The notes beneath the pieces were generated by a model that ran no database searches, had not been told where the DNA came from, and saw nothing but the letters and a program-made list of their open reading frames with translations. This document shows, piece by piece, positions 14,294 through 31,640 of a DNA stretch of 34,410 bases. Each line of letters opens with the position of its first letter. Position 1 is the stretch's first letter. The DNA is taken from assembly GCA_028866785.1 (NCBI GenBank), contig JAGWHN010000011.1, positions 1 to 34,410 of the forward strand. The letters run 5' to 3'. Made by a program: the position numbers and the translations under genes. The DNA is from Microcaldota archaeon. GTDB taxonomy: Archaea > Micrarchaeota > Micrarchaeia > Micrarchaeales > CABMGC01.

Positions 14294-14370
14294 ATAGCTT
14301 TTTTATATGTTTTCGTATATATTAACTGTACATCTTAACTTCTTTTCTGAAAGTTAATAATGGTGATTGT

Positions 14371-18683: not shown

Positions 18684-19721
18684 TTAGAGGATATCCAGGC
18701 CCATTGGCTGCGACTCGTCGTCCTTCTTCATTCCTCCGAAGATTCCAGGGCTTGTGACTCCAGTGAAGATTGCGATAACATCAATTCTTCCCTGGTTGTC
18801 GTTCTCGAGCCTTGCTCCCCATGTTACGCTCGCATTTGGCGAGACGCTTGAAGTTAGCATCTCTCCGATCCTGTTTGCCTCACCAAGGGTCATGTCTGGC
18901 CCTCCGGTTATGTGCAGAAGAACGCCTGTTGCACCTTCATATTCAACATCAAGCAATTTGTTCTTGAGCGTGTTCTTTACCACGTCCTCAACCCTGTTTC
19001 CTCCCTGCCCTGATCCGACGCTGATCATTGCGAGCCCTCCTGAGGACATTATCGCCCTGACGTCCGCATAGTCGATGTTGACCATGCTTGGCTGCGTAAT
19101 TGCTTCCGTGATCCCTCTCACTGCCCTTGAGGTTATCTCGTCCGCAAGCTTGAATGCCTGCTCGATCTGAAGGTTTGGATATAGGTTCACTAGCCTCTGG
19201 TTGTCGATTACGATAAGCGTGTCTACGTGCTGCCTTAGCCTCTCAATTCCCTTCTTTGCGGTATTGAGCCTGCTCCTTTCAAGCGAGAATGGAATTGTTA
19301 CAATTCCTACCACCACTGCGCCGTTCTCCTTTGCGATCCTTGCGACCACCGGTGCAGCTCCCGTTCCGGTTCCTCCTCCCATTCCTGCGGTCAGGAAAAG
19401 CAGGTTCGTGTCCTTCAAAAGTTCCTCGATCTCCCTCCTGGACATCTCCGCGGCCTTCTCTCCCATGTCTGGGAATCCTCCTGCTCCAAGCCCGTGGGTG
19501 AGCGAGTATCCGAGCGCAACCTTCTTTATGACCGGGTTTAGCGTTATGAGCTGCTTGTTGTCGGTGTTGAATGCGAACAGGCTTGCTCCCTTGACATCAA
19601 GCGTGCTGAGTCTTTGAACGGTGTTGTTTCCTCCTCCTCCAACTCCAGCCACGGATATCCTTGGCTTAAAGAGTTCTGCCTCATTTACATCGAAGTTGGC
19701 CATGTTGCCGAAGTCGTTCAT
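18684..19721 (-). CDS. ftsZ2: Cell division GTPase FtsZ (FtsZ2-type paralogue)
   Basis: Tubulin-like GTPase that polymerises into the division ring. The N-terminal nucleotide-binding region has GVGGGGNNTV, the tubulin signature GGGTGTGAAP, and SLERSRLNTAKKGIERL. The T7 synergy loop VNIDYADVRAI carries the catalytic aspartates. The C-terminal domain follows with GATGVLLHITGG and WGARLEND. A short acidic tail ending in PMGLDIL may be the partner-docking peptide. The ATG at 19721 is 6 bases after GGTG; an upstream in-frame GTG at 19733 is less likely. Called FtsZ2 because the other copy (26308-27417) has the ftsZ1-secE context; the subtype is an inference. Divergent from polX. Confidence 0.93.
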   Translation of the reverse strand: MNDFGNMANFDVNEAELFKPRISVAGVGGGGNNTVQRLSTLDVKGASLFAFNTDNKQLITLNPVIKKVALGYSLTHGLGAGGFPDMGEKAAEMSRREIEELLKDTNLLFLTAGMGGGTGTGAAPVVARIAKENGAVVVGIVTIPFSLERSRLNTAKKGIERLRQHVDTLIVIDNQRLVNLYPNLQIEQAFKLADEITSRAVRGITEAITQPSMVNIDYADVRAIMSSGGLAMISVGSGQGGNRVEDVVKNTLKNKLLDVEYEGATGVLLHITGGPDMTLGEANRIGEMLTSSVSPNASVTWGARLENDNQGRIDVIAIFTGVTSPGIFGGMKKDDESQPMGLDIL

Positions 19722-19811
19722 TACAAACACCACTTACTTATCTACAAATAGACTAAAATACTTTTCTGTCGGCTACGAGGTAATTTATTTGTTATTTGTT
19801 CAGTATAATTC

Positions 19812-26307: not shown

Positions 26308-27417
26308 CTACTTTCTTCCTGCCGGCTTTGGCTTGTCGTCCATCTCGAAGATCTCGTCAAGGTCTATGTCCTCCGTGTTGTCCTTGATCTTGGTCTTTAT
26401 TCCGGTCTCGGTGTAGTCCGGGAAGTCCACCCCTCCCATGACGACCATCACCTTGAGCGAGCTCTTTTGCATCGTGTTGTCTATCCTTGCTCCCCACTTC
26501 AGCAGTCCCTCATCGCTGATCCTTCCCGCAACCTCCTGGAAGATTCCCTCTGCCTCCCTGAGCGTCAGGTCCTCTCCTCCGATGATGTTTACAAGCGCCT
26601 TCTTTGTGGTGCTAAGGTCGACGTCGAGCAAAGGCGACTTGAGCGTGTTCTCGATTGCGATCTGCGCCCTGTTTGCGCTCTGGCTCGCCGTTGCCTCCCC
26701 GATTCCAATGACCGCATATCCGGAATCCTTCAGCACGCTCCTTAGGTCCGCGAAATCAAGGTTTACCATTCCTGGCTTTGTGACCATCTCAAGTATCCCC
26801 TTTGTCGCGTTGCACAGCACCTCGTCGCTCACCCTAAATGCCATGTTGAGCGGAAGGTCTGGCGCGACAGCAAGAAGCTTGTCGTTTGGAATTATGATCG
26901 TGCAGTCTGTGACCCGCTTTAGCTTTGAGAGCCCCTCAAGCGCATTTCTCATCCTCATCCTTCCCTCGCTTGAGAATGGGAGCGTTACGATTGCTACCGT
27001 GAGCGCGCCGTTCTCCTTTGCCTCATGCGCGATAACTGGGGCGGAGCCGGTTCCCGTTCCCCCTCCAAGTCCGCATGTGATGAATACGAGCTGCGCATCT
27101 CCTATGATGTGGCGAATGTCCTCTTTGCTTTCAAGCGCAGCCTCTTCGCCGATCTTTGGCTCTGATCCTGCGCCAAGCCCCCTTGCGGACTTCTTTCCGA
27201 TAAGTATCTTTCTTGTTGAATGGGTCTTTGCAAGGTGCGCCGCGTCCGTGTTTGCAGCAACAAGCACCGCCCCCTCTATGTTCATCTCGGCCATTCGCGT
27301 GATTGTGTTGGATCCCGATCCTCCGGCTCCGACCACGTAAATCTTTGGCTTTGCATTTTCAATAAATCGCAAAAGTTCTTCGTCGTCCTGTGAAATCATC
27401 GGTTTGCTCTCTGCCAT
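26308..27417 (-). CDS. ftsZ1: Cell division GTPase FtsZ (FtsZ1-type paralogue)
   Basis: Second tubulin-like division GTPase in the window, 369 residues. Motifs: VVGAGGSGSNTI, NTDAAHL, GGGTGTGSAPVI, FSSEGRMRMRNALEGL, and the T7 loop VNLDFADLRSVL. The C-terminal domain carries KALVNIIGGEDLTLREAEGI and WGARIDNT. A 40-residue acidic then basic tail (DIDLDEIFEMDD then KPKPAGRK) differs from the FtsZ2 tail. Directly followed by secE, the context typical of archaeal FtsZ1. Only modest identity with the copy at 18684-19721, so they are old paralogues with separate roles; in Haloferax, FtsZ1 acts as an assembly scaffold and FtsZ2 in constriction. Confidence 0.94.
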   Translation of the reverse strand: MAESKPMISQDDEELLRFIENAKPKIYVVGAGGSGSNTITRMAEMNIEGAVLVAANTDAAHLAKTHSTRKILIGKKSARGLGAGSEPKIGEEAALESKEDIRHIIGDAQLVFITCGLGGGTGTGSAPVIAHEAKENGALTVAIVTLPFSSEGRMRMRNALEGLSKLKRVTDCTIIIPNDKLLAVAPDLPLNMAFRVSDEVLCNATKGILEMVTKPGMVNLDFADLRSVLKDSGYAVIGIGEATASQSANRAQIAIENTLKSPLLDVDLSTTKKALVNIIGGEDLTLREAEGIFQEVAGRISDEGLLKWGARIDNTMQKSSLKVMVVMGGVDFPDYTETGIKTKIKDNTEDIDLDEIFEMDDKPKPAGRK

Positions 27418-30053: not shown

Positions 30054-30359
30054 TTAGTTCAGGCTCATCTCGATCTGCACCGAGTCTGGGACAGGGATTC
30101 TCATCACCTGCCTTAGAGCCTGCTCCGATCCGTCAATCTCAACCATCCACTTGTGGATCCGCATCTCCCAGTGGTCAAATGTGTGCGAGCCGTCAGCTGC
30201 TGGCGTTTTCCTGGTCGCGATCCTCATCTTGCGGGTAGGCATTGGAATTGGGCCCTTGTTCTTGACCCCTGCGCTCTTTGCGATCTCGATTATTAGTCTC
30301 GCGATTGCTCCGACGTCCTTTGCGTTCCTGCTGATTATCTTGATTCTTGCGACTGGTAT
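30054..30359 (-). CDS. rpsJ: 30S ribosomal protein S10 (uS10), apparent ATA start
   Basis: Small-subunit head protein, 101 residues. Archaeal uS10 hallmarks: GPIPMPTRKMRIATRKTP, HTFDHWEMRIHKWMVEIDG and ALRQVMRIPVPDSVQIEM. The N-terminus VARIKIISRNAKDVGAIARLIIEIAKSAGV aligns with the first strand and helix of the family. The codon just before the family's start position is an in-frame TGA (30360-30362), and there is no ATG, GTG or TTG before residue 40. The only sensible initiator is ATA at 30357-30359, placed 5 bases after GGTG (30365-30368), the same spacing as at other genes here. It lies 9 bases after the EF-1alpha stop, the conserved archaeal tuf-rpsJ arrangement. Confidence 0.92.
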   Translation of the reverse strand: MPVARIKIISRNAKDVGAIARLIIEIAKSAGVKNKGPIPMPTRKMRIATRKTPAADGSHTFDHWEMRIHKWMVEIDGSEQALRQVMRIPVPDSVQIEMSLN

Positions 30360-30368
30360 TCAAACACC

Positions 30369-31640
30369 TTACATCTGCTTCTTGACTACGTCAAGAATTA
30401 CTCCAGCTGCTACTGTCTGACCCATGTCCCTGATTGCGAACCTTCCAAGCTGTGGGAAGTCTGTGTACTTCTCGACCACGATTGCCTTTGATGGCTTGAT
30501 CTTGACGATTGCGACGTCTCCGTTCTTGATGAACTCTGGGTTCTTCTTGAGCGTTGCTCCTGTCTTTGGATCCTTCTGCTCCATAATCTCTGTTATGGTT
30601 GCAGCAAGCTGAGCTGTGTGGATGTGGAAGACCGGCGTGTATCCAGCTGCGATTGCAGTTGGGTGGTTTATCACTACGATCTGCGCAGTGAACTCCTCTG
30701 CGACCGTTGGTGGGTTGTTTGATGGCCCGACCACGTCTCCTCTCTTGATCACTCCCTTGTCGATTCCCTTGATGTTGAAACCTACGTTGTCTCCAGGTCC
30801 TGCCTGCGTGAGCTGCTGGTGGTGCATCTCGATGCTCTTCACCTCAGTCTTCACGTTTGGAGGCATGATAACTACCATGTCTCCCGGTTTCATGATTCCT
30901 GTCTCAACCCTTCCGACTGGAACTGTTCCGAATCCTGAGATTGAGTAGACGTCCTGAAGCGGAAGCCTTAGCGCCTTGTCTGTTGGCTTGACTGGAAGCG
31001 TTAGCTTGTCAAGAGCCTCCATAAGCGTTGGTCCTGTGTACCATTCCATCTTTGGTGACTTCTCCTTTACATTGTCGCCCTGAAGCGCTGAGTAAGGGAC
31101 GAACATTATCTTTGTCGTGTCGAATCCGATCGTCTTGAGCAGAGTTGAGATCTGGGACTTCATGTCCTCATACTTGACTCTGTCGTAGTCGATTGCATCG
31201 ATCTTGTTTATTCCGACAATGAGCTGCGAGATTCCAAGCACCTTTGCGAGGAACGCGTGCTCTCTTGTCTGAGCCTGGACTCCATCCTTTGCTGAAAGAA
31301 CGAGCACTGCAGCATCAGCCTGCGATGCTCCCGTGATCATGTTCTTGACAAAGTCCTTGTGTCCTGGCGCGTCGATGACTGTGAAGTAGTAGTTGTTTGT
31401 CTTGAATTCCTTGTGGTTCACGTCGATTGTGATACCTCTTTCTCTTTCCTCCTTGAGGGAGTCCATGACGAAAGCGAACTCGAAGGTTGGCTTGTTGAAC
31501 TTAGCTGCCTCTTCCTTGAGCTTCTTTAAGTCCTGCTCGCTGACTGACTTTGTCTCGTAAAGCAATCTGCCTACTGTCGTAGACTTTCCGTGGTCTACGT
31601 GTCCTATGAATACAACGTTCATGTGCGGTTTTTCTGCCAT
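30369..31640 (-). CDS. tuf: Translation elongation factor 1-alpha (aEF-1alpha)
   Basis: GTPase that delivers aminoacyl-tRNA to the ribosome. 423 residues with G1 GHVDHGKST at 13-21, switch region ERERGITIDVNHKEF, G3 DAPGHKDF, G4 NKID and the two beta-barrel domains ending GRFAIRDMGQTVAAGVILDV. Codon use is strongly biased and more uniform than in neighbours, as expected for a highly expressed gene. GGTG lies 6 bases before the ATG, and a TATA-like TTATTTTAT sits about 70 bases upstream, giving a leader of some 40 nt. Transcribed with rpsJ; its exchange factor is at 14540-14785. Confidence 0.97.
   Translation of the reverse strand: MAEKPHMNVVFIGHVDHGKSTTVGRLLYETKSVSEQDLKKLKEEAAKFNKPTFEFAFVMDSLKEERERGITIDVNHKEFKTNNYYFTVIDAPGHKDFVKNMITGASQADAAVLVLSAKDGVQAQTREHAFLAKVLGISQLIVGINKIDAIDYDRVKYEDMKSQISTLLKTIGFDTTKIMFVPYSALQGDNVKEKSPKMEWYTGPTLMEALDKLTLPVKPTDKALRLPLQDVYSISGFGTVPVGRVETGIMKPGDMVVIMPPNVKTEVKSIEMHHQQLTQAGPGDNVGFNIKGIDKGVIKRGDVVGPSNNPPTVAEEFTAQIVVINHPTAIAAGYTPVFHIHTAQLAATITEIMEQKDPKTGATLKKNPEFIKNGDVAIVKIKPSKAIVVEKYTDFPQLGRFAIRDMGQTVAAGVILDVVKKQM

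Follow-up and report, generated by a model that had tools for sequence, protein, structure and literature searches.

An AUA codon as the probable start of the ribosomal protein S10 gene in a family of Micrarchaeota

In the window, that is, the whole 34,410-nucleotide stretch that was analysed (contig JAGWHN010000011.1 of assembly GCA_028866785.1), the reading frame of rpsJ, the gene for ribosomal protein uS10, opens with ATA, and from its sequence setting this codon is with high probability a real start. We consider it very probable that AUA is the genuine rpsJ start, placed by a Shine-Dalgarno (SD) sequence and read as Met by the ordinary initiator tRNA. The same ATA in relatives, together with a second AUA-started gene in the window, makes this rare start look real rather than a sequencing mistake. 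The sequence-only reading had proposed the AUA start and had called it unusual for an essential ribosomal gene. The start itself is supported, with an identical ATA in the nearest relative, which was assembled separately, but the idea of a lone case is not supported: within this family AUA also stands on a zinc-ribbon gene, including the copy in the window, and on one uS19 gene, and CUG stands on one rpsJ gene.

The rpsJ coding sequence, when read from AUA, covers 30054..30359 on the minus strand (uS10, 101 aa, stop included), an assignment based on profile matches and a structure alignment, and its AUA start codon lies at 30357..30359 (minus strand), as placed by the sequence and by the start regions of relatives. 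The gene had been given as 30054-30371, of which 30371-30369 belongs to the stop codon of the upstream gene, whereas the end at 30054 stands. This upstream gene encodes EF-1alpha (30369..31640, minus strand), and its TAA stop at 30369-30371 is 9 nt before the rpsJ AUA. It ends with AAG CAG ATG TAA, which is followed by GGTGTTTGA and then by the rpsJ codons ATA CCA GTC GCA AGA ATC AAG. Direct reading confirmed the ATA at codon 1, a TGA directly upstream of it in the same frame, and no ATG, GTG or TTG before an ATG at codon 40. It also confirmed the GGTG (30365-30368) 5 nt before the AUA, which forms part of the SD sequence GGTGTT (30363..30368, minus strand). The ATA-started product is uS10, matching TIGR01046 at 119.6 bits (cut-off 96.25) as well as PF00338. 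Moreover, in the S10 of the closest relative (P0001) residues 2-100 match the equally numbered residues of structurally solved archaeal uS10 chains (4v4n, 6sw9), indicating that the rpsJ ATA occupies the position of Met1.

Comparison of rpsJ start regions in the closest genomes, as the sequence-only reading had suggested, showed that ATA is kept. The nearest relative, G001 (L001; JAGWGX010000018.1, a Micrarchaeota MAG), shares 94% protein identity with the window, and its ATA and the preceding 24 nt are identical, while 28 of the 101 rpsJ codons differ, 22 of them silently and 6 with a change of amino acid. P0001 has 101 aa with M first, is 99% identical to the frame of this relative and bears the NCBI name 30S ribosomal protein S10. 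G001 gave a single rpsJ match and hence no sign of a second copy. ATA stands at the same place in G006, G047 and G048. An upstream in-frame start in relatives, which had been put forward as a sign of an indel, was absent from the close relatives, and none of the ATA rows nor the CTG row of rpsJ has an upstream in-frame canonical start.

The family of the nearest relative comprises 79 genomes, with an rpsJ match in 69. The 69 rows surveyed consist of the window plus 68 loci, which come from 67 genomes with G022 counted twice; they leave out G015, on account of its short contig, and G045, whose match is split and whose copy L040 has TTG. When a canonical codon at or one codon from the aligned place is accepted, the starts are ATG in 41 rows, TTG in 22, ATA in 5 and CTG in 1; at codon 1 itself the rows have ATG (40), TTG (22), ATA (5), CTG (1) and ACC (1), the ACC row having ATG at codon 2. 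Another 36 rows, taken almost entirely from beyond the family, have canonical starts throughout (ATG 30, TTG 3, GTG 3). A pattern for ATA-started rpsJ, built from this family so that divergent S10s may escape it, was found in 4 of the 301 genomes searched in the class, every one in this family, with 0 in the backward control. A quick EF-1alpha tree built from 65 rows divides the rpsJ ATA rows among three places. One is an open fork that the window and G001 form with the TTG row G003, another holds G047 with G048, and G006 makes the third; the fewest changes that account for ATA number 4. The two rpsJ loci of G022 (L124 and L148) differ and come from separate contigs of a single MAG, which is probably a mixed bin, and the same holds for L026 and L063.

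The SD sequence of rpsJ stands at the spacing that is normal for this group. Counted before 735 ATG codons near homology ends, GGTG had 46 occurrences at a spacing of 5 nt, and none of the other spacings between 1 and 15 exceeded 14, so the 5-nt spacing is more frequent than chance. The GGTG reported earlier at this distance from glutamate dehydrogenase and the basic repeat protein was found there, as was GGTG at 6 nt before EF-1alpha and before the FtsZ gene that starts at 19721; the FtsZ gene that starts at 27417 has GGTA. These two FtsZ-like genes of the window lie at 18684-19733 (-) and 26308-27417 (-), Pfam having been run on the first, whose GGTGTTTGTA-ATG is almost the rpsJ leader but with ATG. 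In 4 of 30 loci, the other 26 being unmatched by the search pattern, the 3' end of 16S rRNA was readable as GATCACCTC, and GGUGAU thus pairs with AUCACC. A 16S match was not found in G001. Elsewhere, some 16S matches measure about 1976-2275 nt (L460-L463 and others) against about 1485 in most genomes, and some are broken at model position 828/829; the long and broken matches suggest inserts or introns. Taken together, rpsJ has no usable canonical start, relatives have canonical codons at its place, and its SD sequence is normally spaced.

The second AUA-started gene encodes an HVO_2753-like zinc-ribbon protein (PF07754; 14371..14538, plus strand) in a frame without ATG, GTG or TTG. Its SD sequence GGTGAT (14362..14367, plus strand) lies 3 nt before the AUA, and the start region reads GGTGATTGT ATA GCA ATA GTT CCA. 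The frame was among 10 flagged by a homology screen of 426 frames from the window and G001. Relatives have ATG, TTG, ATA or ATC at the start place, after a GGTGAT-like SD sequence. The gene is present in 71 of the 79 family genomes, and from 71 names surveyed (the window and loci of 70 genomes) 68 rows were obtained. A canonical start within -8 to +4 codons of the aligned place was found in 59 of these 68 rows. Without a nearby canonical start, 8 of the 68 have ATA (the window, G010, G011, G018, G020, G021, G022 and G026) and one has ATC (G027). Five of these nine near-cognate rows (the window, G011, G020, G021 and G022) have no canonical start in the entire frame, and in the other four the first canonical codon is number 8, 20, 20 or 21. 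Among the 59 rows with a canonical start, the copies in G001, G002, G003 and G057 are ambiguous, with GGTGATnnn-ATA 2-4 codons upstream of their ATG or TTG; with these genomes left out, the strict ATA state requires at the fewest 5 changes on the tree. Of 46 uS19 rows (49 names surveyed), a single one has ATA where relatives have ATG, namely that of G029 (L172 / L522), in which the ATA follows GAGGTTGATTGA.

Near-cognate rows carry stronger SD sequences than canonical rows. The median SD duplex energy at rpsJ was -6.2 kcal/mol in near-cognate rows (n = 6) versus -4.3 kcal/mol in canonical rows (n = 63), the latter splitting into -5.5 kcal/mol for TTG (22) and -3.9 kcal/mol for ATG (41); at the zinc-ribbon gene it was -9.0 (n = 9) versus -4.7 kcal/mol (n = 59). 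One-sided rank tests for a stronger near-cognate SD, which take the best candidate per row and are uncorrected for shared ancestry, gave p 1.2e-4 for rpsJ and 9.3e-6 for the zinc ribbon, and p 0.06 for uS19 with its single near-cognate case. This difference is consistent with an SD sequence that makes up for a weak codon, and hints that selection may have kept output up and not only down.

AUA starts appear to be rare in this family and gathered in particular genes, as indicated by canonical controls and by the lack of a general ATA enrichment. The start was ATG in 30 of 30 uL14 rows and canonical in 81 of 81 EF-1alpha rows (ATG 80, TTG 1); uS11 (30/30) and uS7 (29/29) had a canonical start within a broad search range, a weak test in that 80 codons upstream were allowed. 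In a set of 822 homologous genes drawn from the window, G001, G003 and G048, ATG (100), TTG (23) and GTG (7) were all enriched at SD spacing, whereas ATA, with 2 cases at the site against 57 at control positions, showed no enrichment. A general class of AUA starts was thus not seen, and the lack of enrichment counts against our preferred explanation. From the 10 frames flagged in the 426-frame screen, we kept 3: the window's rpsJ and zinc ribbon, and the rpsJ of G001. In another screen 27 of 806 rows passed, many with ATG or TTG a few codons downstream. Many screen flags were judged by eye to reflect upstream or overlapping-frame similarity and were set aside. A plasmid search found nothing.

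Several further near-cognate candidates were judged by eye and stand outside the counts. For aIF2-beta, the only near start in L376 (G003) and L393 (G075) is CTG, where others have TTG or GTG. Possible ACG starts at SD spacing were seen in a surface-like protein of G001 and G003 (L318, minus strand, and L343, plus strand) and in an MFS-like gene of G048 (L360, about 2367, plus strand), and another in a cytidylyltransferase-like gene of G048 (L361, about 3581, plus strand; GGTGTTTGA-ACG), all three named by eye. Possible CTG starts were seen in an unnamed gene of G001 and L012 (GGCG-5-CTG; L292 6711 and L012 619, both plus strand) and in a gene of G003 that looks beta-CASP-like by eye (L326, minus strand).

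The nearest relative has an initiator-type tRNA gene of ordinary appearance with anticodon CAU and a GGGCTCATAACCC stem-loop, which we take to be the initiator mark, and the gene of aIF1 was present in 9 of 9 genomes searched, this relative among them. Some tRNA matches of 99-126 nt, made by Rfam but not by ARAGORN, are probably intron-bearing (L317 13506-13628, L315 2636-2761 and L314 17736-17834). Near-cognate start codons initiate weakly, and the experiment in which all codons were compared as starts was reportedly done in E. coli. In that experiment, as cited in a passage of PMC10666635, ATT reached ~0.3% of ATG, and according to PMC6237735, aIF1 destabilises complexes on non-AUG codons in archaeal test systems. 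From these two observations, AUA initiation is expected to be weak, which speaks against our preferred explanation as it would be odd for an essential ribosomal protein.

Other explanations of the ATA have to be weighed against a genuine AUA start. An error of sequencing or assembly at 30357-30359, or an upstream ATG masked by an indel, has in our estimate a negligible chance: the relative's contig is of low coverage by its title (3.8x), but this relative shows the same ATA and flank as the window, and three more family genomes have ATA there. It is also highly improbable that S10 is made from an internal canonical codon with loss of its N-terminus. Such codons are near inside in two of the five ATA rows (TTG at codon 8 in G047, GTG at codon 16 in G048), whereas the first one is codon 40 in the window, codon 22 in G001 and codon 66 in G006. 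Moreover, codons 1-39 of the window and G048 differ 9, 7 and 28 times at the first, second and third positions, respectively, a mostly third-position pattern of conserved codons, and the N-terminal codons align with the N-terminus of solved uS10. Agmatidine is a C34 modification in tRNA-Ile, and the AUA of rpsJ could likewise be read by an initiator tRNA modified at C34, be edited in the mRNA, or be recoded as Met. Although AUA recurs at rpsJ and the zinc-ribbon gene more often than any other near-cognate codon, and tRNA modification and mRNA editing are invisible in DNA, we consider such a change or special reading very unlikely, given the ordinary initiator tRNA gene of G001 and the ATC and CTG starts that a special AUA reader would leave unexplained. 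Recoding as Met is excluded, as the five internal AUA codons of EF-1alpha align with Ile in 237 of 317 letters and with Met in 5.

A further possibility, also raised in the sequence-only reading, adds a purpose to the genuine AUA start, in which the codon is a selected brake that lowers S10 relative to EF-1alpha from one mRNA. The shared operon with its 9-nt gap is in keeping with such a role, as are the 28 of 69 family rpsJ rows with a start weaker than AUG (TTG, ATA or CTG) and the lower translation that the authors of PMC6237735 expect from TTG and GTG starts. However, ATG is retained in 41 of the 69 rows, weaker codons accompany stronger SD sequences, and AUA also starts a gene without an adjoining EF-1alpha. 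We regard a selected brake as unlikely, and neutral tolerance of AUA under a strong SD sequence as the explanation that needs least.

On our preferred explanation, the SD sequence (GGUG, 5-nt spacing) would place the 30S subunit on rpsJ, the ordinary initiator tRNA (CAU) would pair with AUA at the first two positions with a mismatch at the third, and S10 would begin Met-Pro-Val-Ala-Arg. Since the AUA lies 9 nt after the EF-1alpha stop, some initiation may come from ribosomes that have just finished EF-1alpha, and this coupling may help S10 output. AUA, and likewise CUG, would have replaced AUG or UUG several times in the family where a well-placed SD sequence tolerated the change.

This arrangement has partial parallels in known systems. 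In bacteria, infC, the gene of IF3, has an AUU start that is conserved among relatives and serves autoregulation by IF3. The rpsJ case resembles it in that an essential gene of translation has a near-cognate start which is kept in relatives, but differs in that the codon is AUA, the gene encodes archaeal uS10, the codon varies among relatives, and any regulation would be conjectural. A CUG start on the initiation factor aIF2-beta would recall infC as well. In mitochondria, AUA initiates and is also a Met codon; AUA is predicted to initiate in rpsJ too, but internal AUA codons here stand at Ile positions. As with the SD-led archaeal UUG and GUG genes described in passages of PMC7531240, initiation on rpsJ appears to be SD-led, and UUG is the commonest non-AUG rpsJ start (22 of 69), whereas AUA is mismatched at the third codon base. 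The passages of that paper that were searched mention AUA and near-cognate starts 0 times. The short stop-to-start gap within one operon is a possible likeness to the archaeal termination-reinitiation pairs covered in sections of PMC10666635; unlike those pairs, among which overlaps are far commoner, EF-1alpha and rpsJ are separated by +9 nt and rpsJ has its own SD sequence. For one gene pair of H. volcanii, the same sections state that a 13-nt gap cut reinitiation by 60%.

To our knowledge, natural AUA starts outside mitochondria are hardly documented, and among the CC-licensed PMC papers searched we recognised none that describes AUA starts in Micrarchaeota or archaeal ribosomal protein genes that begin with AUA. 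Gene callers restricted to ATG, GTG and TTG would truncate or miss such genes. The AUA-started ribosomal protein and zinc-ribbon genes are natural tests of how far a strong SD sequence replaces codon-anticodon pairing. We tentatively suggest, as an idea that is plausible though somewhat short of probable, that AUA, AUC, CUG and perhaps ACG are recurring minor starts of translation genes and of a small zinc-ribbon gene in this Micrarchaeota family, that strong SD sequences at a constant distance keep them usable, and that SD strength and start codon evolve together as one tuned unit with these codons at its weak end, which, if true, may set the dosage of ribosomal proteins in the family.
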